From Lachnospiraceae bacterium (GTDB lineage Bacteria > Bacillota > Clostridia > Lachnospirales > Lachnospiraceae), in contig JAGBEO010000011.1 in NCBI GenBank assembly GCA_017936885.1, positions 124,001 to 188,000 of the forward strand: a DNA stretch of 64,000 nt, in the 5' to 3' direction. The notes below the pieces were generated by a model. It did not search any database. It had not been told where the DNA came from and saw only the letters and a list, made by a program, of their open reading frames with translations. The position numbers were made by a program, and so were the translations under genes. Numbering within the stretch: the first letter of the stretch is position 1; the number at the start of each line of letters is the position of its first letter. Below are positions 6,963 to 56,900 of this stretch, one piece after another.

Positions 6963-8867
6963 ATGGTTCATGTAAGAAAAAAAGGAGATTATCGCATCCT
7001 CCTTTTAATACCGTTATTGGCTATATTAGTGGGATTATTATATGAAAAAGAGCAAGTTTTGGATGTACAGAGCGATTGTATTGAGAGTTTGTCTTTTGAG
7101 GTAAAAGAAGGTGCGGCAGAAGAAACAATTATTCCCTTTTACAGTCAGAAGGATAATATGTTTTATCTGTTCCTTCCTTCTTATGCAGATACATCAAATG
7201 TGAGGATATATTTTGAAGGGGCGGAAAAGATAACATTTGAAGAAGCGGGAGAAAGTCATGAACTGAAAAAGGGTATGACTATGCAAAATCTCCAATTAGA
7301 CAAAGTATATCAGACTGCGTTTGTGAAGAACTCGCAAACTGAAAGAGAAACGCAGTTTATGATGATGCGTTCCGCTTTTCTGCCGACGCTTTTTATTCAG
7401 ACGCAGTCAGGTACGATGGAGACGGTAGATACCGATAAATCCTATCAGGAACCGGGGAATTATGTTCTGATGGATGCTGAAGGAGCACTTGTATACGCGG
7501 ATAATTTAGATCATATTACCGGAAGGGGTAATTCCACGTGGAAATATCCCAAGAAGTCCTATAGCATTAAACTTGCAAATCCGGCAGATCTGCTTGGAAT
7601 GGGAAGTGCCCGGGCTTGGATATTGCTGAGTAATGTGGAAGATATTACTTATCTGAGAAATAAAATCACCTATGACATGGCAGTCTCGGCAGGAATGACC
7701 GGGGCACCGGAGTCGAGGTACATAGATTTGTATATCAATAATGAATACAATGGAATGTATCTTCTTTGTGAGAAGATTGAACCGGGAGAGAACAGGATTC
7801 CGATGACGGATCTGGGGCTTGAAAATAAGAAGCTCAATAAAGAAATACAGCTTTCGGAATCGGTCTATACGGAGCGGAGCAAGGGCGTATATCTGGAAAA
7901 GAATCCTAAGGATATATCCGGCGGTTATATTATAGAACGGGACGAATATTCGAAATACACGGAAGAAATCAGCGGGTTCCAATCTTCACTGCTGGGAGAT
8001 TTATATGTAATCAAAAGCCCTGAGTATGCATCGGCGGAGGAAGTGGCTTATATCAGTGGTCTGTTTGCTGAGATGGAAGAAGCGATTGTTGCACAGAACG
8101 GTGTTAATCAGGATACCGGAGAAAGCTATCTGCATTATATTGACTTACAATCCTTTGCGCAGAAATACATGATAGAGGAAATCTGCAAAAATAACGGTGG
8201 GGGAGCGACCAGCTCTTATTTCTATAAACCGGAAGATGCGGTCAGCACCAAAATATTTGGGGGGCCGGTCTGGGATTATGATAAGGCATACGGAGCGGTG
8301 GACGGCATCAATGACAGCAGACGGGATCTGTGTTATTTAACACAGCGTAATGAAGGTACTACATTATTCTGGTATCTGAATCAGCAGCCTGAATTTAAGG
8401 AAGCAGTAAGTGAATGTTATGAAAAGTTCTTTGCAGACTATCTTACAGAGGTACTTAATGAGAAAATCGAAGAGTATATGTCTCAGATGCACTGTTCGGC
8501 GGATATGGATGTAATCAGATGGCAGGAGATCTATGGGATACCCGAACCGTATGAAAAGAGAGTCAGTGTGATTACAGATTTTATCACAGAGAGGAAAGCA
8601 TTTCTGGACGAAGTATGGTTACAGGATGCGGAAGTGTGTACTGTTCACTTTGTGGCACCGGAATGGTACCGCGACACTTATATGAGTGCCGTTAAAGGCG
8701 AATGCCTGACAGCAATACCGATGCAGGAAAAAGGGCAGGAGTCAAACGGCAGGATTTTTGAAGGCTGGTATACGGAAAGCGGGGAAGAATTTGATATGGC
8801 ACAGCCGTTATATGAGGATGTGACGGTGTATGCAAAGAGTCATGAGGTGTCTGACCGGGAAGAATGA
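6963..8867 (+). CDS. CotH-type kinase-like exported protein with C-terminal InlB/Flg_new repeat
   Basis: A 634-residue protein with an N-terminal hydrophobic anchor (about 10-26), so probably held on the outer face of the membrane. The central domain (about 150-560) is CotH: RGNSTWKYPKKSYSIKL (about 187-203), NGMYLLCEKIE, YIIERDEY and PVWDYDKAYG (about 432-441), the last carrying the acidic metal-binding residues. CotH proteins are atypical kinases first known from spore coats; some phosphorylate secreted proteins. The C-terminal 75 residues contain FEGWYTESGEEFD and VTVYAK, a Listeria-Bacteroides (InlB B) repeat. CotH genes often occur with VTC and DUF4956 genes, both present far downstream (45270-46720). 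The substrate is unknown. Confidence 0.88.
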   Translation: MVHVRKKGDYRILLLIPLLAILVGLLYEKEQVLDVQSDCIESLSFEVKEGAAEETIIPFYSQKDNMFYLFLPSYADTSNVRIYFEGAEKITFEEAGESHELKKGMTMQNLQLDKVYQTAFVKNSQTERETQFMMMRSAFLPTLFIQTQSGTMETVDTDKSYQEPGNYVLMDAEGALVYADNLDHITGRGNSTWKYPKKSYSIKLANPADLLGMGSARAWILLSNVEDITYLRNKITYDMAVSAGMTGAPESRYIDLYINNEYNGMYLLCEKIEPGENRIPMTDLGLENKKLNKEIQLSESVYTERSKGVYLEKNPKDISGGYIIERDEYSKYTEEISGFQSSLLGDLYVIKSPEYASAEEVAYISGLFAEMEEAIVAQNGVNQDTGESYLHYIDLQSFAQKYMIEEICKNNGGGATSSYFYKPEDAVSTKIFGGPVWDYDKAYGAVDGINDSRRDLCYLTQRNEGTTLFWYLNQQPEFKEAVSECYEKFFADYLTEVLNEKIEEYMSQMHCSADMDVIRWQEIYGIPEPYEKRVSVITDFITERKAFLDEVWLQDAEVCTVHFVAPEWYRDTYMSAVKGECLTAIPMQEKGQESNGRIFEGWYTESGEEFDMAQPLYEDVTVYAKSHEVSDREE

Positions 8868-37363: not shown

Positions 37364-39007
37364 ATGATTAAGAGACTATGCAAAGGCGCATCTGCAGGAA
37401 TCAGCATTAGTGTAGCAATGTGCTTTTTGTATTTCATATATGCGCCGTTGGAATTGTTTTTTACGAATACAGATGAATTTTGGTTTGATTTGTCAGTGTT
37501 ATTGACAGCTATGGGAGCAACATTCTTGGTAGCTGTATTACTGTGTGTATGCGTAATGATTTTTCTTAGTACCAAGCTGCACAGAGTGTATGATTTTGCG
37601 GTGATTGCATGCGGCGTTATTTATATTGCAACCTATATACAGGGTAATTTTCTTGTAAAGAATCTTCCTCCGCTGGATGGAACTGCTATTGACTGGTCAG
37701 ATTATCCCATTGAGAGAATCAAGTCCATATTGGTATGGATTGCGGTAATAGTATTGATGCTGATTCTTATTAAAGTAGTGCAGATGGACAGGCTGCAGGC
37801 TGCCGTTAAATGGATAAGTTGTGGAGCCACAGCTATGCTGCTGATTACGATTAGCAGTCTTTGCGTTATGTCAAAGGGGTATGAGAGTAAAGCCAATTTA
37901 ACCGTCAGTACCAAAGATTTATTTGAAGTTTCGGAAAATCATAATTTCATTATTCTTCTGCTGGATGCTGCCGACTCTTCAGTTTTTACGGAACTTTTGG
38001 ACAAGCATCCTGAATATGAGGACATCTTTGAAGATTTTACCTATTATCGGAATACGATGGGAGTATACTCCTTTACGAAACATTCTATTCCTTTTATTTT
38101 ATCAGGTGACTGGTATGAAAATGATGAGACCTTTGAAGAGTATTCAATGAATGCCTATATGGAATCATCTCTTTTTGAAGAACTTGAAAAGCAGAATTAT
38201 AAAATGGGAATCTATGAAGAGGAGTTATTGTTGCCGGATGAGAGATTTCGCAAGTTTGATAATATTTTGTCAAATGAATGGGGAACCAGACCGTGGACAG
38301 CATTCGTTAGATGGCAGATTCAAATGGTAGGTTTTAAGTATGCACCATATGATTTGAAACGTATTTGTTTTGTTAATCCTAATGCATTTAAAAAGTTAAG
38401 GATTCCGCCGGAAGGATATGAAACTTTTACAGATTCCAATGTGGATTTCTATGAGGGGATTCTTAACGAGGAAGTAAGTTATACATCTGAAAACAGTTTT
38501 AAGTTTATTCATGTATCGGGGGCACATTTACCTTTTCGGTATGATGAGAATATGAATATCATTGAAGATGCGACCTATGAGACGAACATGGAAGCGAGTA
38601 TGACGATTGCCAGAGAATATTTGAATAAGTTGAGGGATAGTGGTGTATATGACAATTCAGTGATTATTGTGATGGCAGATCATGGTTTCAGTAGTACTGA
38701 TTATGAGGAGCTATACCGTCAGAATCCGATTCTGTTTGTCAAAGGGATTGGAGAGAAACATGACATGCAGACTTCTCTGGCACCGGTGTCTTTCGTAGAT
38801 TTGCAGGAGGCATATCATAGACTGCTTACCGGAGCAGAGAGCACAGAGATTTTTGACTGTAAGGAAGGCGAAGAGCGGGAGCGAAGATATCTATTCTATC
38901 ATTATAACGATGAGTCTCCCATGTATGAATATAAGCAGACAGGTATGGCGTGGGATAGAGAAAGTTTTGTGCCTACAGGCAAAGAATATATATATGGAGA
39001 TGAGTAA
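37364..39007 (+). CDS. Membrane-bound alkaline-phosphatase-superfamily enzyme (sulfatase / phosphoethanolamine-transferase-like)
   Basis: A 547-residue protein with four N-terminal membrane helices (about 12-165) and an extracellular hydrolase domain. Metal and catalytic features: LLLDAADSSVF (about 198-208, first Asp), Thr238 in SFTKHSIPFILSG at the position of the nucleophile of EptA/LtaS-like enzymes, FIHVSGAHLPF (His, about 380) and IVMADHGFS (Asp-His, about 436). The architecture is that of phosphoethanolamine or phosphoglycerol transferases that decorate surface glycans outside the membrane. With the preceding CDP-forming fusion, transfer of a phospho-amino-alcohol is inferred. AAGGAG lies eight bases before the ATG. 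Confidence 0.8.
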   Translation: MIKRLCKGASAGISISVAMCFLYFIYAPLELFFTNTDEFWFDLSVLLTAMGATFLVAVLLCVCVMIFLSTKLHRVYDFAVIACGVIYIATYIQGNFLVKNLPPLDGTAIDWSDYPIERIKSILVWIAVIVLMLILIKVVQMDRLQAAVKWISCGATAMLLITISSLCVMSKGYESKANLTVSTKDLFEVSENHNFIILLLDAADSSVFTELLDKHPEYEDIFEDFTYYRNTMGVYSFTKHSIPFILSGDWYENDETFEEYSMNAYMESSLFEELEKQNYKMGIYEEELLLPDERFRKFDNILSNEWGTRPWTAFVRWQIQMVGFKYAPYDLKRICFVNPNAFKKLRIPPEGYETFTDSNVDFYEGILNEEVSYTSENSFKFIHVSGAHLPFRYDENMNIIEDATYETNMEASMTIAREYLNKLRDSGVYDNSVIIVMADHGFSSTDYEELYRQNPILFVKGIGEKHDMQTSLAPVSFVDLQEAYHRLLTGAESTEIFDCKEGEERERRYLFYHYNDESPMYEYKQTGMAWDRESFVPTGKEYIYGDE

Positions 39008-39009
39008 GA

Positions 39010-40917
39010 ATGACCATTCTGTATAATGTGTTTGAGAAAATAATGAATGGCTGTTATTTCCTGTGCAGAAATTATGGTCTGGCAATTATTCTGTTTACTT
39101 TTATCAGTAAAATAGTATTGCTTCCTGTATCTGTCTGGGTGCATAAGAATTCCATTAAAATGGTTAAGATGCAGCCGGATATTAATTTCCTAAAGGCGCA
39201 GTATTTTGGGGATAAGGATTCAATTGCGGAGGAGCAGAGCAAACTTTATAAAAGAGAAAAATATAATCCGGCAGCTTCTATTATTCCGCTGGCAGTGCAG
39301 ATTGTTTTATTGTTGGGAGTGGTATACGCTATTAGGGCAGGAATTGATAATCCACAAATCAGTATGGATTTCTGCGGTATCAATCTAAGTCTGATCCCCA
39401 GTGAAATGGGTGTAGTACTGTTGTATTCACCGATAGTGGCTGGATTGTCGGCTTGGATATTGTGTGTTGCACAGAATAGCAGAAATGTATTGCAGGCTGA
39501 ACAATCTATGTGGAATAAATTTGGTACTATGGCATTTTCAGTGGGACTATCTTTATATCTTGGGTGGTTTGTACCTGTTGGAGTGGCGTTGTACTGGGTG
39601 TGCAGTAATTTGATGGCTGTGCTGCAGCTTTTGATTTTAAATGTAGTAATCAATCCTAAGAAATATATTGATTATGAGAGACTTAGTGAAAGTAAGAAGG
39701 CATTAGAGACACTTGGCAGCGTTGGTAGTGAGAAGAACCGGAAAACAACGCTCATAGAGCGGAGACGTGAGAAACAGGACTATAAGCGCTTTTTCTCAGT
39801 TGTGAATAAGCATCTGGTATTTTATTCGGAAGGCAGTGGCTTTTATAAGTATTTCAAGGGATACATTGAATACTTGTTAGAATATACGAATCTCCAAATA
39901 CACTATATTACCAGCGATCCGGAGGATGCTGTTTTTAAGCTTGCTGAAAAGCAGGAAAGAATTCATGCTTATTATATAGGTGAGAAAAAGCTTATTACAT
40001 TAATGATGAAAATGGATGCAGATGTGGTACTAATGACTATGCCTGATCTGGAGAATTATCACATCAAGAGAAGTTATGTGCGAAAGGATATTGAATATAT
40101 TTATATTCCGCACGGAATGGACAGTCTAAATTTGACAATGAGAACCGGTGCAATGGATCATTACGACACGATTTTCTGTGTAGGAAAGCATCAGAGCGAG
40201 GAAGTGCGTAAAACAGAAGCTGTGTATGGGCTGCCGGAGAAGACACTGATAGATTGTGGATATCCGCTTTTGGATGATATGAGAGCAGATTTTTGCAGGA
40301 TGGAAAGAAAGGAAGATGACAAGCTTAAGATTTTGATAGCGCCGTCATGGCAGAAAGACAATATTGTTGATAATTGTTTGGAAGAGATACTTGATCAGTT
40401 AAAAGGGCAGGATTATCAGATTACGGTTCGTCCGCATCCGCAGCATGTGCGGCATCAAAAGGAAAAGATGGAAGGGTTAAAACAACAATATCAGAATGAT
40501 TCGGATATCGTTATTCAGACAGATTTTTCATCTAATTCGACAGTTTTTGAGGCAGATCTGATGATTACGGATTGGTCGGGAATTGCTTATGAGTATGCGT
40601 ATACCACGCAGAGACCGGTATTGTTTATCAATACACCCATGAAGATTATGAATCCTGAATATCAGAAGATTGATACAATTCCACTTAATATCTGGCTTAG
40701 AGATGAGATCGGACATTCGCTGGAATTATCGGAATTGTCTAAGGTACAGGATACGGTGAAAGAACTTATATTGAGGAGAGATGAATATTATAATAAAATC
40801 GGAGCCTTTGTTGAGGAATATGTATACAATGTGGGAAACAGCGCTGAAATAGGTGCTAAGTATATTATAAACAGAATTCAGGAGAAGATACAGACAAGGA
40901 AGGAGAATCGCGAATGA
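39010..40917 (+). CDS. YidC/Oxa1-like domain fused to a CDP-glycerol glycerophosphotransferase-like domain
   Basis: A 635-residue fusion. The first 220 residues match YidC/Oxa1: YGLAIILFTFISKIVLLPVSV, then KMVKMQPDINFLKAQY in the cytoplasmic hairpin, and VPVGVALYWVCSNLMAVLQ in the last helix. A basic linker (about 225-262) leads to a GT-B domain of the TagF/TagB family: YIYIPHGMDSL, VGKHQSEEV, VRPHPQH (about 474-480) and DWSGIAYEYAYTTQRPVLF (about 521-539), which carries the donor-phosphate motif. The hydrophobic part probably acts as anchor or lipid/substrate gate rather than as general insertase. Only two bases separate it from the previous gene. Confidence 0.87.
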   Translation: MTILYNVFEKIMNGCYFLCRNYGLAIILFTFISKIVLLPVSVWVHKNSIKMVKMQPDINFLKAQYFGDKDSIAEEQSKLYKREKYNPAASIIPLAVQIVLLLGVVYAIRAGIDNPQISMDFCGINLSLIPSEMGVVLLYSPIVAGLSAWILCVAQNSRNVLQAEQSMWNKFGTMAFSVGLSLYLGWFVPVGVALYWVCSNLMAVLQLLILNVVINPKKYIDYERLSESKKALETLGSVGSEKNRKTTLIERRREKQDYKRFFSVVNKHLVFYSEGSGFYKYFKGYIEYLLEYTNLQIHYITSDPEDAVFKLAEKQERIHAYYIGEKKLITLMMKMDADVVLMTMPDLENYHIKRSYVRKDIEYIYIPHGMDSLNLTMRTGAMDHYDTIFCVGKHQSEEVRKTEAVYGLPEKTLIDCGYPLLDDMRADFCRMERKEDDKLKILIAPSWQKDNIVDNCLEEILDQLKGQDYQITVRPHPQHVRHQKEKMEGLKQQYQNDSDIVIQTDFSSNSTVFEADLMITDWSGIAYEYAYTTQRPVLFINTPMKIMNPEYQKIDTIPLNIWLRDEIGHSLELSELSKVQDTVKELILRRDEYYNKIGAFVEEYVYNVGNSAEIGAKYIINRIQEKIQTRKENRE

Positions 40918-41180
40918 TTAAGAAAATAGTGAAAGAGATACTTTGTGTGGGATATTTTACAGCTTGTTTTATGTTGATGTTTGGTGTTAATTTACAGGCA
41001 TATATAGATCCTTCGGTAATGACTTATGTAATTCAGGCCGTGGCGGGAATTGCTGTTGCACTGGGTGCGGCTGTGGGTATCTACTGGCGAAGGGCTAAGA
41101 AGAAACTTGATAATAAGCTTGGACTTGATGAGAACAGAAATAAGATAGTAGAATCTGATGATATAGAGATTAAACAATAA
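40914..41180 (+). CDS. Small two-helix membrane protein
   Basis: An 88-residue protein with helices at about 9-28 and 36-58, then a short Arg/Lys-rich stretch (WRRAKKKL) and a charged tail. The stretch AYIDPSVMTYVIQAVAGIAV between and within the helices is distinctive. No named family was recognised. It is coupled to the YidC fusion by ATGA with AAGGAG ten bases upstream, so it is very likely translated and may be a subunit or scaffold for the fused enzyme. Confidence 0.75.
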   Translation: MIKKIVKEILCVGYFTACFMLMFGVNLQAYIDPSVMTYVIQAVAGIAVALGAAVGIYWRRAKKKLDNKLGLDENRNKIVESDDIEIKQ

Positions 41181-41223: not shown

Positions 41224-41691
41224 ATGAATAAACGATGGAGACGTTGGATTGTAATCGCGGTGACAGCACTAATTGCATGGATGTTATCTCATTACTGGCT
41301 GCAATTAGCAGTTGTCATAGGTGATTCTATGGAGCCGACGTATCATAATTTGCAGTTTGTATTGTTAGATAAGCACACAAGAAGCTTGGAGCGTGGGGAT
41401 GTTATTGCCTTTCGAAATGAGGCAACAGACGGTTATCTGATTAAAAGAGTTATCGCATTACCAGGAGATAGTGTTTTGATAGATAATGGAATACTTTATG
41501 TGAATGGAGAAGTTAGCAGTTTATATTCAAATGAAGAAATCGCGTATGCTGGTATTGCTGAAAATGAGATATCTCTTACGACAAATGAGTATTTTGTCAT
41601 TGGAGATAATCATGAATATAGCCGGGATAGCCGTTATGAAGAGATCGGATGTGTTTATAATACGGAGATAATTGGCAGGGTGATAGAATAA
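41224..41691 (+). CDS. Signal peptidase I (S26 family)
   Basis: A 155-residue protein with one N-terminal membrane helix (about 8-30). The catalytic Ser35 lies in GDSMEPTY and the general-base Lys74 in LIKRVIALPGD, a 39-residue spacing typical of Gram-positive SipS-type enzymes; GDNHEYSRDSRYEEIG is box E. It cleaves secretory signal peptides on the outer membrane face. Placement inside a glycan operon rather than alone suggests a dedicated substrate, perhaps one of the exported enzymes or the giant surface proteins encoded nearby. Confidence 0.92.
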   Translation: MNKRWRRWIVIAVTALIAWMLSHYWLQLAVVIGDSMEPTYHNLQFVLLDKHTRSLERGDVIAFRNEATDGYLIKRVIALPGDSVLIDNGILYVNGEVSSLYSNEEIAYAGIAENEISLTTNEYFVIGDNHEYSRDSRYEEIGCVYNTEIIGRVIE

Positions 41692-43730: not shown

Positions 43731-43753
43731 AATGAAACTGGCGGTCAATGATA

Positions 43754-45235
43754 ATGGGCAAAAAGATGTTGCTTGTGGTTCCCCATCAGGACGATGAAAT
43801 ATTTGTGGGTGGAGGATTATTAAGAATATTTTCTAAGAGCAAAGATTATGAAGTACATGTGGTTTTTACGACAAACGGAGATTTCTTTCCGTCAGAGGGA
43901 GAGATACGTCTTAGGGAATCTTTGCGTGTTTTGACGAAATTATATGTTATTCCGGAAAAGAATATCTCCTTTTTAGGGTATGGTGACGGATGGCAGGGTG
44001 GCAAGCACTTGTATAATCTGCAAAGAACACAGATGACAACGTCAATATGCGGTAGGAGAGAAACCTACGGAATCACTGAACATGAGGATTACAGATGGAT
44101 AAAGTCAGGAAGACATAGTGTGTACTGTAGAGATAATTTCAAAGCAGATATGAAAGAACTTATGTCAGATATTATGGCGGATATTATTATAGCTGTAGAT
44201 TATGATAAGCATCCGGATCACAAAGCGGCATCCTTGATGGCGGAGGAATGTATCGGCGAACTGTTAAAGGAACACCCGAATTATCGTCCTATTGTCTTAA
44301 AACGATATGCGTATGACGGTGTGTGGAAAGGGAAAGCCGATTTTTTTGATCTACCGCGCAAGAGAACAATATTGTCGCAGTTTGAAGAAGCTCCGTATTT
44401 GGAGGAGGATAAGATTTGTATTGGGATGCCGGCGGAGTGCAGTACTCCATACTTGCGGCATAACTTTCTCTATATTGCTGCCAAGTGCTATAAAACGCAG
44501 GAGGTATGGCAGAAGGCAGATGAAATCATTAATATTGATGAGGTTTACTGGAGAAGAAATACTAATAATCTGCTGTATGAAGCGGAACTGAAAGCTTCCT
44601 CAGGGCAGGTAGAGTTTATTCGGGACTTCAAATTGTATGATTGTGATGATATCATGAAAAAGCAGTTTGTGATGAAGCAATGTGCATGGCTTCCGGTTGT
44701 CTCAGACCATGACAGAAGAATTCATATTCATTTCAATCATCCACAGACAATAGAACAGATTAATATTTATGCGTTGGGCAATCCAAGTAAGGACAGGTTG
44801 TCAGGAGAATTTGTGCTGGATAATGGTGTGCGATTATTTACTGGAAATATTTGCCTAAACGGGAAGAAAAATAAATTTACACTGGAGAGGCAGAGTAATA
44901 TTATCAACATAGATTTTTATATCACCGATTGTGTAGGTAATCCGGCAGGGATTACGGAAATGGAAATATTGCCGCAAAGAGACGGCAGTGTGCCGGAGGA
45001 ATTACAGAAGTTTGTTTTTCGGGAAGATTCTTTTGAGTTTAACACAGTTCATAAATTGGGAATGCAGATTGAGAGGACAATGTTTTCTTTAAAGAGGAAA
45101 CTGTATAGATGGTTTCCTAATGAATTTTTCTTAAAAAGATACTATCCGGAACTTGGGAAGAAAAGACAATGGTTATTTATTTATAGAATTAAATTTGTAT
45201 GGGAACGTGTAAACAGTAAATTTGGTAATCCTTGA
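43754..45235 (+). CDS. PIG-L/LmbE-family deacetylase with C-terminal galactose-binding-like domain
   Basis: A 493-residue protein. The N-terminal PIG-L domain has VVPHQDDEIFVGGG (about 8-21) with the zinc-binding His and Asp-Asp, and DYDKHPDHKAA (about 152-162) with the second histidine pair. Residues from about 300 to 425 form a beta-rich module (IHIHFNHPQTIEQINIYA, FVLDNGVRLFTG, GITEMEILP) with the look of an F5/8-type galactose-binding fold; the last 70 are basic. PIG-L enzymes deacetylate GlcNAc linked to lipids or nucleotides. No signal peptide is visible. The appended domain would bind glycan and is not part of the minimal family. Confidence 0.83.
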   Translation: MGKKMLLVVPHQDDEIFVGGGLLRIFSKSKDYEVHVVFTTNGDFFPSEGEIRLRESLRVLTKLYVIPEKNISFLGYGDGWQGGKHLYNLQRTQMTTSICGRRETYGITEHEDYRWIKSGRHSVYCRDNFKADMKELMSDIMADIIIAVDYDKHPDHKAASLMAEECIGELLKEHPNYRPIVLKRYAYDGVWKGKADFFDLPRKRTILSQFEEAPYLEEDKICIGMPAECSTPYLRHNFLYIAAKCYKTQEVWQKADEIINIDEVYWRRNTNNLLYEAELKASSGQVEFIRDFKLYDCDDIMKKQFVMKQCAWLPVVSDHDRRIHIHFNHPQTIEQINIYALGNPSKDRLSGEFVLDNGVRLFTGNICLNGKKNKFTLERQSNIINIDFYITDCVGNPAGITEMEILPQRDGSVPEELQKFVFREDSFEFNTVHKLGMQIERTMFSLKRKLYRWFPNEFFLKRYYPELGKKRQWLFIYRIKFVWERVNSKFGNP

Positions 45236-45269: not shown

Positions 45270-45986
45270 GTGTCCAATGAGAGATTTTATTTGACTGCTG
45301 GGGAGGACAATGTGTACAGAGTAGAAAATAAATATAACTGCAGTGAGGAAGAAATGTATATTTTGCAGCACAGATTGGAAGGTGTCTTAAAAGCCGACAG
45401 TAATGAGAATCATCCGGAAGGCTATAGTATCATCAGTCTTTATTTTGATGATATGAAAGATACTTGCCTGAGAGATACTGTAGATGGGGTGGAATTGCGT
45501 GACAAATACCGCATCAGGATATATAATAATTCTTTGGATACAATTAAGCTGGAAGTGAAGTCCAAGAAGGACAGCCGTATTCTTAAGAAGTCCAGAACTA
45601 TCACGAGGAATCAGATGGAACAGTTGCTTTGCGGAGAGTGTATAGAGGATTCGGCATCGATGGATGACCCGGCAACCCTTTTTAATCTTGCTATTAAGAC
45701 GAAAGGGTTACGGCCCAAAGTGATTGTGGCGTATGAGCGGAAAGCTTATATATTCGAGCCGGGCAATACCAGAATTACGCTTGACAGGAATGTGCGCGCA
45801 AGCAATCGTATTGAGGATTTTGGCAAAGATAATATAAGTTATGATTTCATAAATGAGTATGATAAGGTTTTAGAAGTCAAGTATGATGAATTTATTCCGG
45901 GCTTTTTATTACAACTGTTGGAGTTGGGAAATATGCAGCAGACTTCGTATTCCAAATATCAGTTATGCAGGGAGATATATTTATAA
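45270..45986 (+). CDS. VTC-domain protein (polyphosphate-polymerase-like)
   Basis: A 238-residue protein with the basic tunnel signatures of the VTC family: YRVENKYNCSEEE, SLYFDDMKDTCLRDTVDG, RDKYRIRIYN, KLEVKSKKDSRILKKSRTI, VAYERKAYI, RITLDRNVRA and VLEVKYDEFIP. In yeast Vtc4 this domain makes polyphosphate from ATP; bacterial homologues are mostly uncharacterised and often sit beside DUF4956 and CotH genes. The following gene encodes DUF4956 and a CotH protein is encoded at 6963. Start codon is GTG with AGGATAGGA shortly upstream. Whether it makes polyphosphate here is not known. Confidence 0.88.
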   Translation: MSNERFYLTAGEDNVYRVENKYNCSEEEMYILQHRLEGVLKADSNENHPEGYSIISLYFDDMKDTCLRDTVDGVELRDKYRIRIYNNSLDTIKLEVKSKKDSRILKKSRTITRNQMEQLLCGECIEDSASMDDPATLFNLAIKTKGLRPKVIVAYERKAYIFEPGNTRITLDRNVRASNRIEDFGKDNISYDFINEYDKVLEVKYDEFIPGFLLQLLELGNMQQTSYSKYQLCREIYL

Positions 45987-46039: not shown

Positions 46040-46720
46040 ATGTCAGTCAAAGATGTCATTAAAAGCAGTGTGTATGAGAGTCTGGGAGGGGGCACGAATT
46101 TATCGGTTGCCAATATTCTGCTGATTCTTGCAGTTGCGTGTTTGTTAGGTCTGTATATTTTTGCGGTGTATAAATTATCCAGCAAATCTGCTTTTTATTC
46201 CAAGGACTTGAATGTGACGATGGCGGGAATGCCGCTCATCATAGCAGCTATTATGATCGCGATGCAGTCTAATCTGTTGGTGTCATTAGGTATGGTGGGT
46301 GCATTGTCTATTGTCAGATTCCGTAATGCAGTGAAGAACCCGGTTGATTTGCTGTATTTGTTCTGGTCTATCAGTACCGGTATTATTGTGGGAGTAGGTC
46401 TTTACATACTCGCGCTGGTGCTGTGTATTGTGATGACGATACTTCTTATTGTGCTGGATATGATTCCGAACGCGAAAGCGCCGGATTTACTGGTACTTCG
46501 CGGTGAGGCGGACAAGATGGATTATGCCGGATTAGAGACACTTATGAAAGAATATTGTAAATATCATAAGGAAAAATCCAGATGTATTAAGAACGGAGAG
46601 ACTGAACTGATTATAGAAATCAGAACTTCAAAGAAAGAAGAATTGTTACAGAAACTGACAGCAAAGGAACATATGACACAGGTTAATTGCATTTCGCATG
46701 ATGGAGAGTGCAGAGTATAA
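46040..46720 (+). CDS. DUF4956 membrane protein
   Basis: A 226-residue protein with about four membrane helices (about 24-44, 62-80, 82-95, 108-145) and a soluble C-terminal ferredoxin-like segment of about 75 residues. The stretch LGMVGALSIVRFRNAVKNPVDLLYLFWSI is the conserved core of DUF4956. The family is the habitual partner of VTC-domain genes, as here (53 bases downstream of one). It may form the channel or anchor for the VTC protein. AAGGAGAGA before the ATG is a strong ribosome site. Confidence 0.88.
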   Translation: MSVKDVIKSSVYESLGGGTNLSVANILLILAVACLLGLYIFAVYKLSSKSAFYSKDLNVTMAGMPLIIAAIMIAMQSNLLVSLGMVGALSIVRFRNAVKNPVDLLYLFWSISTGIIVGVGLYILALVLCIVMTILLIVLDMIPNAKAPDLLVLRGEADKMDYAGLETLMKEYCKYHKEKSRCIKNGETELIIEIRTSKKEELLQKLTAKEHMTQVNCISHDGECRV

Positions 46721-48952: not shown

Positions 48953-51900
48953 ATGAAAAAGATGAACAAAAAGAAACATACCGTGTATTCATATCCGTGT
49001 AGATGGCTGACATTTATTCTGTGTCTTGCACTGTGCCTGGGAAGCAGTTCTTTACAGGTACTGGCGGTGGAAGAAACCGTATTGTATACAGATTATGAAG
49101 GTGATAACAGCCAGAGCATGGAGGGCTCCACCGATATTTCCGGCAATACGGAAGATACAGGAAATCAGGATATGCCAACAGATCCTGATGCCCCGGAGGA
49201 TTCCAATGACTCGGAGAACGGAGAAGAAACGGACAATCAAACAGGGGCAGAAGACTCGGCAGGTTCAGAGAACAGCGGTAATCTGACTGATCAGCCGGAG
49301 GATGAGAAAGCACAGGAAGATAACGTTTCGCCGGATCAGCCGGAGGATCAGGTAAAAGACGATTTGGAGGACAGTGAAGGTTCGGAACAGATATCCGATA
49401 ATGATTTGGAAACGGTTTCTGAAAATAATCTGGATTCTGTTTCGGAGAACGATCTGGATGAAGAACGTGCTATACATATAAAAGAAGCAGAAGAGGCTTT
49501 TGCGAAGTTGGCGGAAGAAAAAGTACTGATGGCGTTGTTGTATCATGCCGACAGCTATCAGGTGCGAAGGGAAGCGGACAAAGATAGTGCGGTTACTGCC
49601 ACTTTAGAGATAGGGCATACCGTATATCTGCGTGGTGTGAAGATTACAGAGGAAGACATCTGGTATCAGGTGCAGTTTTGGCTTGACGGCAATGAGCAGA
49701 CGGGATATATCCAAAGTTATTATCTGGCATACTCGGATGAAGATTGGATTGCATGGGAAAAAGAATATGTGACACCTCTCTGGAAGACGGAGAATGAATT
49801 CAGTCGTTCAGCGTATGGGATGACTACATATGCGGTTATGGAAAGCGCAGTGGATTATTCGGATATCTCAGCATTTCCTTCTGCCTATCAGAGTGATCTG
49901 CGGAGCTTGAAAGCAGCGCATCCGAACTGGACTTTTGTACCCATGAATACGGGACTTGATTTTAATACGGTGGTCAAGAATGAGATGGGAGACAAGAGCC
50001 TGATTCAGAATACAAGCAGCAATAGTTCTAAAGGATGGGTAGGCAAGTTATACAGCGGCAGTTGGTATTATGCCACAGAAGCAGGAGTGTCCCATTATCT
50101 GAATCCCTGCAATTTTTTAAAGGAAGAGTATATTTTTCAGTTTGAACAGTTGACGTTTAATGCTTCCTATCACAATGTGACGGCTGTACAGGCCTTTCTG
50201 AACAGTACTTTTATGAAAGGCGCAATACCGGGAGACTCAGGCAACAGAACCTATGCACAGGCATTTTATGAGATTGGCAAGAGCCGTAAATTAAGCCCGA
50301 TCCATTTGGCATCCCGTGTATATCAAGAGCAGGGAAAGGGAACATCCCCGTTGATATCGGGTACTTACAGCGGCTATAGTGGGTACTATAATTATTTTAA
50401 TGTGGGAGCCAGCGGCAAAACAGATGCGGAAGTAATCGAGAATGGTTTGAAATATGCCAAATCAAAAGGTTGGAATACGCGCTACAAGTCCCTTGAGGGA
50501 GGCGCGGCTACGATTGGGAATAACTATGTTTTGAAAGGGCAGGATACTCCGTATTTGCAGAAATTTAATGTGGACGGCAATTATAATGCTCTTTACACCC
50601 ACCAGTATATGCAGAATATCCAGGCACCGGCCAGTGAATCCCAGAGTACAAGAAAAATGTATTCCGGCGCCGGAAGTCTTAATTCGGCCTTTGTATTCAA
50701 GATTCCTGTTTATAAGAATATGCCCGGAGGAACAGGATTAACGTTAAATAAGACAAGTCATACGATGAATAAGGGTGATACCCTGCAACTGTCGGCAACG
50801 TTGGATGGCATTGAGAGTACGGACGGACAATTTGCTGTGACATGGAAAAGTGATGACAGTTCTGTTGCCACGGTACAGGAAGGACTTGTTACAGCCTGCG
50901 ATGTGGGAGAGACCGTCATTACAGCTTCTTGTGACGGCTATGTGGCATCCTGCAAGATCATTGTGAAAAATCCGTTGCAGACTATCACCCTTCAATATGA
51001 CGGAGAAACGGTCACAACGGAATATCCCGTGGTGCTGAGAAGGGCAGATACCGTGGTTGCAGATACGAGCGGTTTCAGTGCACAAGAAATCAAAGAAAAT
51101 GTATCTGCTGCAACATTACAGGTATCTTTTGAACCGGAGGACACAACGGACGACAGAACCATTGTTTGGTCAACATCGGATACTAAGATAGCTACTGTAA
51201 AAGCAGATACGGCAGATCCAACTAAGGCAGTTGTCACAGCCAAGGCAACAGGTGAGGTGACAATCACAGCCAAAGCATCGAAAGCGGGCAATAAAACCGC
51301 AACATGTAAAGTTAAGGTGATTGCACCTGTTTATAAAGTGGAATTGACGAATCCAAATGCGCAATCCTCAGATTTGGCAGATACGACAACATTGTTTGCA
51401 GGACAGAGCGTTAGCTTAAATGCAGAGTATTTTCCTAAGAATACCACATCCGATACGCAGATTATATGGAGTGGTTCGAACGATAAAGTTGCAACGGTTA
51501 AAAATGGCAAAGTGACAGCGGCGTCGGCTGGAACGGTCAAGATTACGGCACAGATAAAAGGGTACGAAGAAGGAGAAAAGGTCTATTCCGCTACCCATAC
51601 GATTGTTGTCAAGGAATGTACAGTAACCTTTATGAAGAAAGACGGCAAGACGGTGCTGAAAAGTCAGACTTTGGGATATGGAGAGACGATATCGAAAGCA
51701 GACTTCCCTGTGGAAGAGAAGGTTAATGGCAGTCTGTTTATCGGCTGGTACACAGGTCAAAACGGTACAGGCAGCTTATTTGATGAAACAACAGGAGTCT
51801 ATAAAGAGAACGTAACATTATATCCCTACTATGAAGAACAGGGCAAAGGTTTCTATGTAGTACCCGTAGGAGACCAGACTTATACGGGCAGCGCCATCAA

Positions 51901-53812
51901 GCCGGTTATTCAGGTATACGACGGAGTAAAATATGAAGAAGGTGACAGAGAATTAATCCCGCTGGTTCTAAATCAGGATTACACTGTATCCTATAAGAAT
52001 AATAAGAACGTGAATGCAGAAGGCAGCAAAGCAGTCCCAACCATCACGGTTAAGGGAAAAGGAAATTATGCGGGAACTCAGTATGTGTATTTCAATATCG
52101 TGCCAAAGGCATTGACAGATGCTGATATCATTGCAGATGATATCACGGTGGCATACAGCGGTAAGACGATTAAAAGTGCACCTAAAGTAATGCGCGGCGG
52201 TAAGAAACTGGCTGTTAAGACAGATTATACGGTCTCTTATCCGCAAACAGGAACCGGAGCTTATCAGAAGGCCGGAACTTATCCGGTTGTGATTACCGGA
52301 AAGGGCGGTTACGCGGGAACCATTACCGTTTATGAAACCATTACACAGGATGTAATGATGAGCAAGGTCAGCATAGCCAAGATCCCGAATCAGACCTATT
52401 GCAATGATCTGGTGGACAAGGAAGCGGGGATCGGTATTACACCTCCGGGTTTGATCGTGAAGTATAAGAATAATGTTCTGACAGAGAGTGAAGACGGTGG
52501 TCTGACAGGGGATTACACTGTAACCTATCAGAACAATATGGCGGTTGGAACGGCAACCGCGACGATCACGGCGGTAGAGGGAAGCGGCTTTACGGGAAGT
52601 AAGAGTGCAACGTATAAGATCGTTGGTACCTCTATAACGAAAGCCAAAGTGACTGGAATTATCGCTAAGGATTATACCGGCAATGAAGAGGATGTGAAGC
52701 AGAGCGATTACACATTGACACTGAATGACAGGGAATTGGTGGAAGATGTAGATTATGTTGTATCTTACAGTAATATTTCCAAGGTTGGGACAGCCAAGAT
52801 TACGTTTCAGGGGATCAATGAATATACCGGTAAGGTTACGAAAAGCTATAAGATCAATGCCTATAATATTTCTTTGGGTGAATCCGGAGATAACGTATGT
52901 ATCAGTATGAAATATTATCTGCAGGGAGAGGATAAGAGTGCTGCCGGGAATATAGATTTCATAGAAGAAATAACAGCCCCCTATGTAAAAGGCGGCAGCA
53001 AACCGATGGTGGTGCTGTATTTTAACGATATCGAACTGACACCGGGCAAAGATTATACCATCAGGTATGCTAATAATAATGCGGTCACAACTTATGATAT
53101 GCCGGAGAAAAAACTGCCGAAGATTACCATAACCGGAAAAGGAAATTTTAAAGGGAGTTTTAGCGGCACGTGGTGCATCACGGACGGACAGATGTCCGAT
53201 GAAAACGGCAAACTCACTATGACAGTTAATGATGTTGTTTATAAGAATAAGAAAGGGGCATATAAGTCCGCTGTTAGCATTAAGGATGTAAGCGGAAGCA
53301 AGCTGGCAGCAGGGAAGGACTATGATAAGAATCTAATCTACACATATGAAGAAGAAATTCGGTTGGAGAACGCGGATGGCAGCATTACTTTGCGGCAGGC
53401 GGGTGATACAGTAGAGACAGCGGATATTGTACCGGCAGGAACGGTTATTCGTGTGACGGCGATAGGAAAAGGTGCATATGCCGGAGAAACCGCGGATGGC
53501 GCATTCATTTCCAAGACTTATCGGGTTGTGGCATCGAACATTTCCGGCGCGAAAGTTAAAACAGTATCCAAGTCTTATCTGAATGGCAGGGCAGTAACCT
53601 TGAAACCGGAGGATCTGACAGTGACCTTTAAAGGAGTAACAGAGCCGCTTGTATATGGTGTAGATTATGTGATTGATCAAGAAACCTATACCAACAATAT
53701 TAAGAAAGGCAGAGCAACGGTTATCATACGCGGAATTGGTGATTACGGTGGAGAGAAGAAAATAACATATACTATTGGTGCTAAACAGATTTTGTGGTGG
53801 AAAAGTAATTAA
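48953..53812 (+). CDS. Giant secreted glucosaminidase with SH3, Big2, InlB and MBG-like repeats
   Basis: A 1619-residue exported protein. Signal peptide 1-38 (basic, hydrophobic LTFILCLALCLG, cleavage near VLA-VEE); acidic linker to about 180 with the repeated S-E-N-D/N-L-D motif; SH3-like domain about 190-265; glucosaminidase domain about 300-560 with SPIHLASRVYQEQGKG, whose Glu (about 458) is the likely catalytic acid; three Big2 Ig-like domains about 590-885; an InlB-type repeat (FIGWYTGQNGTGS) about 890-965; then about five MBG-like repeats (YTG..., GxDYxVxYxNN, GKGNYxG) to the end. It probably cuts peptidoglycan while binding the wall. No LPXTG or SLH anchor is visible. ATG 48962 is an alternative start with AGGA eight bases upstream. 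Confidence 0.9.
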   Translation: MKKMNKKKHTVYSYPCRWLTFILCLALCLGSSSLQVLAVEETVLYTDYEGDNSQSMEGSTDISGNTEDTGNQDMPTDPDAPEDSNDSENGEETDNQTGAEDSAGSENSGNLTDQPEDEKAQEDNVSPDQPEDQVKDDLEDSEGSEQISDNDLETVSENNLDSVSENDLDEERAIHIKEAEEAFAKLAEEKVLMALLYHADSYQVRREADKDSAVTATLEIGHTVYLRGVKITEEDIWYQVQFWLDGNEQTGYIQSYYLAYSDEDWIAWEKEYVTPLWKTENEFSRSAYGMTTYAVMESAVDYSDISAFPSAYQSDLRSLKAAHPNWTFVPMNTGLDFNTVVKNEMGDKSLIQNTSSNSSKGWVGKLYSGSWYYATEAGVSHYLNPCNFLKEEYIFQFEQLTFNASYHNVTAVQAFLNSTFMKGAIPGDSGNRTYAQAFYEIGKSRKLSPIHLASRVYQEQGKGTSPLISGTYSGYSGYYNYFNVGASGKTDAEVIENGLKYAKSKGWNTRYKSLEGGAATIGNNYVLKGQDTPYLQKFNVDGNYNALYTHQYMQNIQAPASESQSTRKMYSGAGSLNSAFVFKIPVYKNMPGGTGLTLNKTSHTMNKGDTLQLSATLDGIESTDGQFAVTWKSDDSSVATVQEGLVTACDVGETVITASCDGYVASCKIIVKNPLQTITLQYDGETVTTEYPVVLRRADTVVADTSGFSAQEIKENVSAATLQVSFEPEDTTDDRTIVWSTSDTKIATVKADTADPTKAVVTAKATGEVTITAKASKAGNKTATCKVKVIAPVYKVELTNPNAQSSDLADTTTLFAGQSVSLNAEYFPKNTTSDTQIIWSGSNDKVATVKNGKVTAASAGTVKITAQIKGYEEGEKVYSATHTIVVKECTVTFMKKDGKTVLKSQTLGYGETISKADFPVEEKVNGSLFIGWYTGQNGTGSLFDETTGVYKENVTLYPYYEEQGKGFYVVPVGDQTYTGSAIKPVIQVYDGVKYEEGDRELIPLVLNQDYTVSYKNNKNVNAEGSKAVPTITVKGKGNYAGTQYVYFNIVPKALTDADIIADDITVAYSGKTIKSAPKVMRGGKKLAVKTDYTVSYPQTGTGAYQKAGTYPVVITGKGGYAGTITVYETITQDVMMSKVSIAKIPNQTYCNDLVDKEAGIGITPPGLIVKYKNNVLTESEDGGLTGDYTVTYQNNMAVGTATATITAVEGSGFTGSKSATYKIVGTSITKAKVTGIIAKDYTGNEEDVKQSDYTLTLNDRELVEDVDYVVSYSNISKVGTAKITFQGINEYTGKVTKSYKINAYNISLGESGDNVCISMKYYLQGEDKSAAGNIDFIEEITAPYVKGGSKPMVVLYFNDIELTPGKDYTIRYANNNAVTTYDMPEKKLPKITITGKGNFKGSFSGTWCITDGQMSDENGKLTMTVNDVVYKNKKGAYKSAVSIKDVSGSKLAAGKDYDKNLIYTYEEEIRLENADGSITLRQAGDTVETADIVPAGTVIRVTAIGKGAYAGETADGAFISKTYRVVASNISGAKVKTVSKSYLNGRAVTLKPEDLTVTFKGVTEPLVYGVDYVIDQETYTNNIKKGRATVIIRGIGDYGGEKKITYTIGAKQILWWKSN

Positions 53813-53850
53813 GATTTTCTTAAAAACACAAGATATAGTGGGAAATCCAC

Positions 53851-53879
53851 TTGTATTGCACAAGTGAAAATGCTATAAT
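53851..53879 (+). promoter_or_regulatory. Sigma-70 promoter of the BspA-like gene
   Basis: TTGTAT (53851-53856) and TATAAT (53874-53879) with a 17-base spacer and a TG one base before the -10 (53871-53872), giving both a -35 and an extended -10. Initiation near 53886 leaves about 81 bases of leader. No clear terminator follows the glucosaminidase gene, so read-through may add to expression. Confidence 0.75.
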
Positions 53880-53966
53880 CAAAACGTTATAAGTGATTTT
53901 ATGTAAATCGAATTTATAGTTCACATGGAGATAAAAAAGCAAAGCACAGGAAAAGGTGGAGAAAAG

Positions 53967-56900
53967 ATGAAAAAGAGAAGGGTACTTGCATTATTGTTGG
54001 CATTGAGTCTGGCGGTCAGTATGAATGGCATGACGGCTTTGGCAGCAGGAATGGGTGACATGCAGATGGCAGAGTTATCGCTTGAAGACGAGTCTGAGGC
54101 GAGAGAAGATGGCGGGCAAGGGAATGACCCTGTAGAAGAAACTGTCCCGACCGACAATGTGGACGAAGAAGATTCTGAAGCGAAGACGGATGATAAAGAG
54201 TTAGATCCCGGATCAGAACAGACGCCGGAGGATTCCGGTGATTCAGATGAGTCCGGTAATCCGAACGATGATAAAAAGGATGATGATTCTGACGTGGAAG
54301 ATGGTTCTGAAACGGATGAACAGCCGGATGCAGATACTGATCTGGAGGATAATAAGGACGGCATGGTGGAAGAAGAACCGGATGCTGAGGAAACTCTGAC
54401 GGAAGAAAAGACAGAGGAAACAGAAAAGCAGGAGCCTGCTGAGGAGGAGAAGAAGCCTGAGGAAGAGGCGATTGTTCGCACGGTAAATTTTACTGACGAT
54501 ACAGGTATGCGTATTACCTATGACACTTACATAATCTATGATGAACAGACGAAACAGACAAGGACGACTGACGGATTTAATTATGAGGTCGAAAATGGTG
54601 TGCTGGTAAGTTTAACAAAAGGTGACAATAAGGAGACAGTAACAGGTAACGTAGTGTTAAGCCAGCCGGGAGAGGGCGCTGATTATGAAAGGTTTACTTC
54701 TATTGCGGCTTCTGTTTTCCAGGGAAATGATAAGATTACCTATGTTAAGATCCCTGCGGGTGTAACAACGATAGAGGATAACACTTTCAAAGGCTGTACG
54801 GCGCTGAAAGGATGTTATATCCCTTCTAAGGTAACAAGTATCGGAAGCAGCGCTTTTGAAGGCTGTACATCACTGACACAGCTTGCGATCCCGAAGAGCG
54901 TTGCGTCTATTGGTACGAAAGCATTTTACGGAGACGCTAAACTTTTTATGGTACATATGAAAGATGCGGATTATTCTCAGTTAGCGGACATTGGAGAAAG
55001 CGCCTTTGAAGGATGCTCTGCATTGCAGAAGTTCTGCTCTGACGGAGAGTTCAATTTTCCGGAGAGTATTACAAGCGTAGGAGCCAGAGCATTCTACGGT
55101 TGTTCCAAAATCCCTAAGGTCATTATGGGGGCCGGGGTAACATCAATTGGCACGGAAGCATTTATGAACTGTACCTCAATGGAAGAATTATCTATATCCA
55201 GAGGTTGCGGTATTATTTCGCAGTATGCATTTGCCGGTTGTTCTAATTTGCAGACAGTTACATTTGTAAATAGTAATAATAGAACGAAAACGACTATTGA
55301 AAGTTATGCATTCAAAAATTGTACTTCGTTGGGGAGTATTGACATTCAGTCGTGGATTGAACAGATTAACTCATATGCTTTCTCAGGATGCAGCAGATTG
55401 GGAAAAATACGGATTAGATATGATGATGCAGTGTTGCAAACAGATGCGTTTCCAAACAGTAATCCTAATATTTGTCTTGTGGGAGCAGCAGGATCGACAG
55501 CTTCTGAATATGCCAGTAAAGCAAAGATTCGTTTTGTAGATCCGGAAGATGTTGAATCGAAACAATATTACACCTATACGACTAAAGTATCCGGTCCTGG
55601 AACGGATACAGATAAACCGATTTCAATTGTAGTGTCCAATAAGCGTGATGGTGGTGCAAGTGATATTAATGCATTGAATGGCGGTAAGGGTGTTGAGGCA
55701 GGGACAGAATTATATGTCTATATTTTGTATTATGACAATAAAAATATTCAGTTAGTGCCGAAAAGTCTTAAGTGTAATGGAACGGTTATTGAAGCGAAAG
55801 ATAGGATTTATACTTTTACAATGCCTGTTGGTGGTGCCGTAATCAGTGCAGAATTCGAAAATATAAATAGTTCTGTTGCTATAAAGGGCTTTGAGGATAA
55901 TGTAAGCACAGAATTGTCCAATGGCGATGAGTTGAAGATTGGTCAGACAACAAAATTGTTCCTGACAAGTGATTATCCGGGCGATGATAATTTGATTCCT
56001 GCTTCTAAGATTGAGTATTCCATTTCTCCATACTCATCCAAGTCAGTGGCAAGTGTTGCGTCTGACGGTACCATTAAGGCATTAGCAGTAGGAACTACGG
56101 TCATCTGTGCCAAGGTTAAGAGGGACGGCAACGGAAATTCTTTTACCAAGACAGTAACAATCCGGGTTTCCGCTGCTGATGTTGATTCCATTAAGATCAG
56201 AGCAACGGAATATGACAAATCGGTTATTGCACTGTCTGAAAGTGCAGATGGGGTGCAGAGCGCGTCTATTGACAGCGACAGAGTAACGAAAGCATATGCC
56301 TTTAAGCTGAAAGCAACAGCCTATGATGAGGAAGAAGATAATATGGCAGTAGCCTTTAAGTGGACAAGTAGCGATACCAAGGTTGCCAAGTTATCTGCAG
56401 CATCTACAACATCGGCGTCTCCCATCAATACGGTAACCATACCGGCGAATACAGACGGTGAGGCTACGATTACAGTAACGGCGACTAACGCGGACAAGAC
56501 AACTGTTACACAGAAATTTATTATCAGTGTTAAGAATTATAAGCCGAGACTGTCAGAGTCAACTATTACAATCAACCCTAATCAGAAAGAGGGTACCGTA
56601 CTGGAGATAATCAGCGCTTATGGTGAGGGAATTAATAAAGAGTCCATAGCTTTATATGCGGAGAAAGTTGATCTGGATTACAAGGATTTTAAGTTAGAGT
56701 ACGATGCAGCTAACAGTACGGATACTGTAGCAAGATTTATTGTGACTGCCAGCGATGGATTAGCGGATGGGACTTATAACCGAAGATTGAAAGTGGATGT
56801 AATGAATTCCACCTATAAAATCCCGGTGAAACTTGTTGTGAAGAAGACTGCACCGGATCCTAAAGTGGGTTTTGTCGCAAAACAGCCGAAATTGAATCTT

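Follow-up and report, generated by a model that had tools for sequence, protein, structure and literature searches.

Why should a YidC/Oxa1 membrane domain be joined in one protein to a transferase of the teichoic acid type? This question is raised by a gene at positions 39010 to 40917 of a 64,000-nucleotide stretch of DNA from a Lachnospiraceae bacterium (positions 124,001 to 188,000 of the forward strand of contig JAGBEO010000011.1, assembly GCA_017936885.1), which was analysed as a whole and is called the window here. An original prediction, made from the sequence alone, had recognized both domains and suggested that the first might be a membrane anchor, a groove for a lipid-linked acceptor or an insertase dedicated to a small neighbouring protein. 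We propose that the fusion supplies the cytosolic and membrane half of a machine with four modules, by which an aminoalkyl phosphate or phosphonate is attached to a surface glycan, and we give this proposal an even chance of being right. The four modules are the YidC domain, the transferase domain, a lipoteichoic acid (LTA)-synthase-like membrane sulfatase and a small membrane segment with the motif YIDP. That they work together is the best-shown part of the proposal.

Results

An intact two-domain gene

The fusion is encoded in one open frame from ATG to TGA, and the original prediction was right that it did not arise from two misassembled genes. Its domain calls, YidC/Oxa1 and TagF/TagB-like, are also sound. 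In Pfam, PF02096 (60KD_IMP) covers residues 22-211 with 106 bits (cut-off 35; E 2.5e-30) and PF04464 (Glyphos_transf) residues 266-542 with 55.5 bits (cut-off 22.1; E 6.1e-15); these were the only two families found in the fusion, and PF04991 (LicD) was not matched. The NCBIfam model TIGR03592 (yidC_oxa1_cterm) scored 99.4 bits, above its cut-off of 84.3. Of the solved structures, Escherichia coli YidC (5mg3, E 6.8e-15) matches the first half best. TagF-type chains were missed there by a profile of the full-length fusion; one built from 14 transferase domains alone found the TagF-like capsule polymerase Cps3D (8qoy, 5.9e-9) and TarL (8va1, 9.2e-6). The fold of this domain, termed GT below, is presumably of the GT-B type.

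Relatives were sought in one genome per species, over 84,980 species, and 179 were confirmed. The fused state was scored on the best 80 of these, and unfused relatives may occur among the other 99. Both domains stood in a single frame in 80/80, two of which (L047 and L075) were cut by a contig end. Because all 80 fetched relatives have this arrangement, the fusion is no assembly accident, and chance or an assembly artefact was ruled out as its source.

Four modules in changing pairings

The sulfatase gene ends 2 bases before the fusion gene, and the stop of the fusion overlaps by 4 bases the start of the gene for the YIDP protein (ATGA, at 40914), which agrees with the coupling described in the original prediction. 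We examined 83 distinct loci with the fusion (family 1), namely the best 80 and three further ones, and ran the module profiles over all of them; L201 is the same DNA as L008 and was counted once. Twenty canonical Glyphos_transf loci and 20 ordinary yidC loci served as controls. All locus counts ignore kinship and many loci end early at contig ends; the 40 controls include 4 loci below 12 kb in length, two of them below 8.1 kb. The YIDP profile matched in 79 of the 83 loci (77/80 fetched) and the sulfatase profile in 59 (58/80 fetched), compared with none of the 20 loci in either control. These counts strongly support the earlier suspicion that the small protein belongs with the fusion.

The same parts are joined in several ways. 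The order sulfatase, YidC-GT, YIDP, exactly as in the window, was found in 26/80 loci. In 13/80 the YIDP segment forms the N-terminus of the sulfatase, giving a gene pair of YidC-GT and YIDP-sulfatase, and in 4/80 a single frame holds YidC, GT and sulfatase together (L026 and L081 by Pfam, L029 and L037 by profile). The three-module frames can have opposite orders, because L026 reads sulfatase-YidC-GT and L081 YidC-GT-sulfatase in Pfam.

A second family has the pairing YidC-sulfatase and YIDP-GT. It was first seen as large YidC frames of about 870-940 aa; in Pfam, five of these had YidC over the cut-off and a sulfatase-superfamily domain (over the cut-off in one, weaker in four). Neighbours of the large frames, in a class of 413-432 aa, carried a YIDPGTGS span and Glyphos_transf in the three that were scanned. 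By profile, YidC-sulfatase was found in 17/17 loci of family 2 from 13 genomes, with YIDP-GT in the same locus in 14/17. The remaining three loci belong to one genome (G441), in which YIDP-GT is encoded elsewhere, about 500 bases from a phosphoenolpyruvate (PEP) mutase gene. L148, a probable family-2 locus with a cut YidC-sulfatase, was left out of the 17. An intermediate, L197, has a family-1-type sulfatase on a family-2 YidC. Thus the same four parts recur in fusions with differing partners, a classic sign that they make up one machine. One 16.5-kb locus of family 2 (L134) contains five tandem YidC-sulfatase genes (921-936 aa) beside one YIDP-GT gene.

A quick tree of 59 rows set the GT domains against 29 canonical Glyphos_transf domains, which came from the same bacterial family (29 of 30 loci used). 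Family-1 and family-2 GTs, together with one solo GT, grouped in a single clade to the exclusion of all 29 (support 100). A second quick tree, of 86 rows, drew its 49 ordinary YidC rows from 55 loci; in it each family had a YidC clade of its own, and the two were not sisters; a joint YidC clade of both families was not rejected (approximately unbiased test, p 0.553).

The sulfatase partner matches PF00884 with 33 bits (cut-off 25). A profile of 12 partner sulfatases matches the LtaS structure 2w5q over one stretch (6e-6), and the partner did not reach the LtaS equivalog cut-off of NCBIfam (18.9 versus 970 bits). D201, T238, H388, D439 and H440 are invariant in the 12 rows (alignment A4), and we take them, by analogy with LtaS, to be residues of the metal-site type.

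Signal peptidase I was encoded in 17/28 loci with a signal-peptide-like stand-alone YIDP protein, compared to 0/29 without one (p 1.5e-7, kinship ignored). This count was usable in 57/80 loci; those left out were 4 without a tblastn match, 5 without a start codon, 13 with a sulfatase-fused YIDP, and L010. Signal peptidase I may be the enzyme that processes the YIDP protein. Small YIDPGTGS proteins were also seen beside a membrane sulfatase in two 12-kb loci (L253:6006-6245 and L254:5956-6207), and L253 encodes in addition a weakly methyltransferase-like protein nearby.

Conserved positions and predicted sidedness

The original prediction had expected a conserved arginine in the YidC groove. 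In the window fusion the residue is Lys34, which aligns with the groove arginine of E. coli YidC, presumably Arg366. Of the 56 family-1 rows of alignment A1, 55 have a letter at this position, 54 of them K and one R, and ordinary YidC has K 23, R 19, Y 5 and N 2 (n=49). A basic groove residue is therefore not universal among YidC domains. Lys34, P39, P56, Q97, Y195, W196 and N200 are kept in 20/20 family-1 rows. The identity of GT domains across the families to that of the window is 23-27%; RPHP is invariant among the rows compared from both families, as are the T, D, R, H, RPHPQ and D-x-S positions (A5, 14 rows). A direct salt bridge between the groove Lys and the YIDP Asp was not supported, because family 2 keeps this Asp yet has Asn or Gln in the groove.

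The YidC part has five hydrophobic segments, with four basic residues after the last (Kyte-Doolittle). By hydropathy, the sulfatase has five predicted spans followed by a domain predicted outside, and the mature YIDP protein has one span with six basic residues after it, predicted N-out/C-in. The single YIDP-GT tested (L139) has one span with its basic side toward the GT. The predicted topology therefore puts the GT inside and the sulfatase outside.

Neighbouring genes for head-group supply

Upstream of the sulfatase, the window encodes a 610-aa protein with PF12804 (NTP_transf_3, cytidylyltransferase-like; 44.8 bits) and PF00155 (116.2 bits) in Pfam; the CobD model TIGR01140 gave 188.1 bits, below its cut-off of 290.55. 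It may supply CDP-ethanolamine (CDP, cytidine diphosphate). In the source genome no PEP mutase was found at E 1e-60 and no choline kinase at the threshold used, which fits this CobD-like/NTP_transf_3 protein as the supplier. In Campylobacter jejuni capsule synthesis, a serine-phosphate decarboxylase yields ethanolamine phosphate, according to passages of PMC12409886.

Head-group genes were assigned by tblastn (50 bits, best query). Synthesis genes were present in 41/83 family-1 and 6/17 family-2 loci, compared to 1/20 canonical Glyphos_transf and 0/20 yidC loci; for 47/100 versus 1/20, Fisher p was 2.9e-4, kinship ignored. Genes of the cytidylyltransferase type were found in 47/83, 7/17, 12/20 (all CTP_transf_like) and 0/20 loci, respectively. 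All three types of cassette occur in both families: a CobD-like enzyme dependent on pyridoxal phosphate (PLP) with a cytidylyltransferase in 21/83 and 1/17 loci of families 1 and 2, PEP mutase with 2-aminoethylphosphonate (AEP) genes in 8/83 and 3/17, and choline kinase or a BCCT carrier in 8/83 and 2/17. NTP_transf_3 and Choline_kinase are joined in one protein in L063, L048 and L083 (Pfam), which we read as a putative LicC-LicA, and L063 also has a BCCT carrier. In L005 a PEP mutase, a phosphonopyruvate decarboxylase and an AEP transaminase exceed the NCBIfam cut-offs (TIGR02320, TIGR03297 and TIGR03301; 408.8, 466.6 and 474.6 bits), and single AEP enzymes were confirmed by NCBIfam in L135, L145 and L146. 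Among 150 genomes, PEP mutase was found in 5/10 with either family, compared to 10/140 others (p 9.5e-4, kinship ignored).

Hosts and the ordinary yidC

The hosts include Lachnospiraceae, Oscillospiraceae, Solobacterium/Erysipelotrichaceae, Bacilli, Roseburia inulinivorans DSM 16841 (L076) and Saccharibacteria (14 records). In its own bacterial family the fusion was present in 5 of 150 sampled genomes (G000, G459, G488, G523 and G572), and the single other genome of the same genus in this sample lacked it. Across the phylum, a full-length fusion was found in 2/398 genomes, the source genome among them, and strong YIDP-GT matches in 1/299, the GT of the source genome not being counted. Of 241 pattern matches in viral contigs, none was a relative.

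The source genome has one other YidC, of ordinary type (439 aa), and no second Glyphos_transf match. This YidC is flanked by genes that we take, from the look of their sequences and their order, to be rnpA-like and jag-like. We searched the genomes of 40 of the 80 loci and found a further YidC match in 38/40 and an ordinary-length YidC in 37/40. The fusion was the sole YidC match in G399 and G400, and G416 had besides it only a YidC-sulfatase and a 205-aa frame. The idea that the fusion is the cell's only YidC was rejected, and the fusion is an extra copy beside the ordinary yidC. In 8/9 of the Saccharibacteria genomes searched (L027, L032, L035, L039, L045, L046, L064 and L073; 0.7-0.9 Mb), both genes share a contig, with about 14-25 kb between them. 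The fusion therefore truly belongs to Saccharibacteria.

Features of the window

The features of the fusion and its partners are collected in Table 1. Glycan genes in the window are accompanied by CotH kinase-like (6963-8867), VTC-domain (45270-45986) and DUF4956 (46040-46720) genes. A protein at 43748-45235 has a PIG-L-type deacetylase domain at residues 8-168, and its long C-terminal part matched no Pfam family at E 0.001. Two adjacent giant proteins (1619 and 1676 aa; 48953-58955) carry Big_2 and BspA-type leucine-rich repeats.

Table 1. Coordinates, in the window, of the fusion gene, its parts and its partner genes.
Feature	Position	Strand	Basis
Head-group activation protein, NTP_transf_3 fused to CobD-like PLP enzyme, 610 aa	35515..37347	+	PF12804, PF00155
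LTA-synthase-like membrane sulfatase, 547 aa, alkaline-phosphatase superfamily	37364..39007	+	PF00884, profile match LtaS 2w5q
YidC-GT fusion protein, 635 aa	39010..40917	+	open frame ATG to TGA; PF02096 and PF04464 over cut-off
YidC/Oxa1 domain, residues 22-211, five predicted membrane spans	39073..39642	+	PF02096, TIGR03592, Kyte-Doolittle
Lys34, groove position aligned with E. coli YidC Arg	39109..39111	+	phmmer alignment to 5mg3
Interdomain linker, residues 212-265	39643..39804	+	stretch separating both Pfam matches
Glyphos_transf (TagF/TarL-like) domain, residues 266-542	39805..40635	+	PF04464, profile matches 8qoy and 8va1
RPHP motif, residues 474-477	40429..40440	+	alignments A1 (56 rows), A5 (14 rows)
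YIDP protein, 88 aa, YIDPS motif, signal-peptide-like start	40914..41180	+	YIDP profile, hydropathy
Signal peptidase I	41224..41691	+	TIGR02227, 107.6 bits (cut-off 47)

Discussion

How the four modules may act can be outlined from their families and neighbours. A head-group cassette, present as gene content, would make CDP-X or CMP-X (CMP, cytidine monophosphate), where the group added, P-X, is probably phosphoethanolamine in the window and AEP or phosphocholine in relatives. The GT, held at the inner face of the membrane by YidC, would move P-X from CMP onto an acceptor, for which a membrane lipid carrier is our best guess. YidC and the YIDP helix would then form a membrane core linking the two sides, most likely as a passage for the lipid-linked P-X; this flipping is the least-shown step. 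On the outside, the LTA-synthase-like domain, judging from its family, would transfer P-X to the glycan. E. coli YidC scrambles lipids in liposomes, according to passages of a preprint (PMC10491306). A bolder version of the scheme, in which the YidC groove, gated by the YIDP helix, handles lipid-linked head groups instead of proteins and two diverged YidC lineages have entered the machine with swapped partners, is tentative and in our view somewhat improbable. The roles offered by the original prediction are partly supported as an interpretation, to which the sulfatase, a partner that it had not named, must be added. Its polyol-phosphate type of substrate is shifted by the neighbouring genes toward aminoalkyl phosphates and phosphonates.

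Several observations weigh against the proposed machine. A 13-kb locus (L145; 2194-11221) has an AEP-type operon, a solo GT of the clade of the fusion and two membrane sulfatases, and no YidC or YIDP by profile. Therefore YidC is not required everywhere, and the system may be centred on the sulfatase, with YidC as an addition. Conversely, L253 and L254 have no YidC or GT by the module profiles, and YIDP may work with membrane sulfatases more generally. The groove position in family 2 is Asn or Gln in 17/17 rows. Neither a head-group nor a cytidylyltransferase gene was found in 34/83 family-1 and 10/17 family-2 loci, and 14 such loci fall among the 50 family-1 loci of at least 12 kb. Choline kinase was not enriched per genome (2/10 versus 36/140, p 1.0), and LicD, which is known to transfer groups of this kind, occurs in 5/83 family-1 loci.

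Some of these observations bear on other explanations. The YidC domain might still insert a protein, with the YIDP helix as its main client, which would then serve the sulfatase. YIDP is present in 79/83 distinct loci, and this small protein, with its span predicted N-out/C-in, has the topology of the classic YidC clients Pf3 and M13 procoat. Family 1 keeps the groove Lys and a loop like that of YidC which we take to be C1, and the Saccharibacteria YIDP proteins that were read, like 8/9 family-2 YIDP-GT proteins, start too near the motif for a signal peptide. However, an ordinary-length YidC is also encoded in 37/40 fusion-bearing genomes, a dedicated insertase has no need of fusion to an enzyme, family 2 has the helix within its GT protein and Asn or Gln in all 17 grooves, and YIDP occurs without YidC by profile in the 12-kb loci L253 and L254. 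We consider a dedicated insertase unlikely. It is similarly doubtful that YidC is just a borrowed five-span anchor, which would keep the GT at the membrane and next to the sulfatase and transport nothing. A scaffold of this kind could explain why YidC switches its fusion partner between GT and sulfatase, why L145 manages without YidC and why the groove charge is lacking in family 2. On the other hand, the YidC-type positions kept in 20/20 rows of family 1 go beyond the needs of an anchor, and both families use YidC domains though any anchor would serve.

The GT could also be a polymerase or primase of the teichoic type that builds polyol phosphate from CDP-glycerol or CDP-ribitol, in which case the head-group genes would serve a different enzyme, LicD for example. 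The Pfam domain is named CDP-glycerol glycerophosphotransferase and the GT profile matches Cps3D and TarL; moreover, L021, L050, L073 and L080 have only CTP_transf_like genes, and L014 only an IspD-like gene. Nevertheless, the GT clade is separate from the 29 canonical domains, and LicD is present in only 5/83 loci. The canonical loci have CTP_transf_like (TagD-like) genes in 12/20 and head-group genes in 1/20, the reverse of the fusion family. A polyol enzyme is the alternative to which we give very little credence, and the decorating machine remains the reading that we develop here.

Compared with known systems, the fusion resembles the YidC/Oxa1/Alb3 insertases in its model scores over the cut-offs, its five predicted spans and, in family 1, its basic groove residue, but is an extra copy in glycan loci, joined to a transferase or a sulfatase. 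It shares with the PF04464 enzymes of the TagF/TarL type (Cps3D and TarL) the domain model, the RPHP and D-x-S motifs and the profile match; in contrast, its GT lies in its own clade against the 29 canonical rows, and in about half of the loci the donors made by neighbouring genes are of the aminoalkyl rather than the polyol kind. The sulfatase profile matches LtaS structures (2w5q, 6e-6), which relates the partner to LtaS/LtaP and other membrane transferases of the alkaline-phosphatase superfamily; it differs in failing the LtaS equivalog cut-off and in being coupled to GT, YidC and YIDP. In three-component glycosylation systems, a lipid is loaded inside, flipped and used for transfer outside, and we know of no part that is homologous between them and the YidC-GT machine. 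DltX, a small membrane protein, offers another comparison. It is encoded with the Dlt surface-modification system in the account given in passages of PMC5541007, and the likeness to YIDP is analogy only. The same holds for the three-component systems (GtrA/GtrB/Gtr and GtcA; passages of PMC7389260 and PMC11127046), and the flip step proposed here is conjectural.

The Lic (LicA-LicB-LicC-LicD) and Pnt/PntC pathways have choline kinase and cytidylyltransferase, the BCCT carrier and AEP enzymes in common with our loci, in which a set of YidC, GT, sulfatase and YIDP is found rather than a LicD-like phosphotransferase. The Pnt steps after Ppm are called enigmatic, and LicD-like phosphotransferases are favoured, in passages of PMC6697681. 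Its main text has no mention of YidC, insertase, glycerophosphotransferase, sulfatase or TagF. The original prediction had asked whether the fusion is common and already characterized. At 5/150 genomes of its family it is fairly common, but titles and beginnings of abstracts in the open-licence literature gave no description of a YidC-GT fusion or of the four-module machine; the string YIDPG occurred there in a paper that is, by its title, on another subject. The component families are known, and the machine and a YidC relative in such a role appear to be new. We know of no YidC/Oxa1 relative in surface-glycan chemistry, and the titles and beginnings of abstracts named none.

If the proposal is true, it would provide a transferase machine for phosphonate tailoring, in the steps after Ppm, and a second route beside LicD for decoration of the phosphocholine type in gut commensals. 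The module extends to Saccharibacteria with their tiny genomes. The proposal, if true, would also open a natural way to find out whether insertase grooves transport lipids in vivo.

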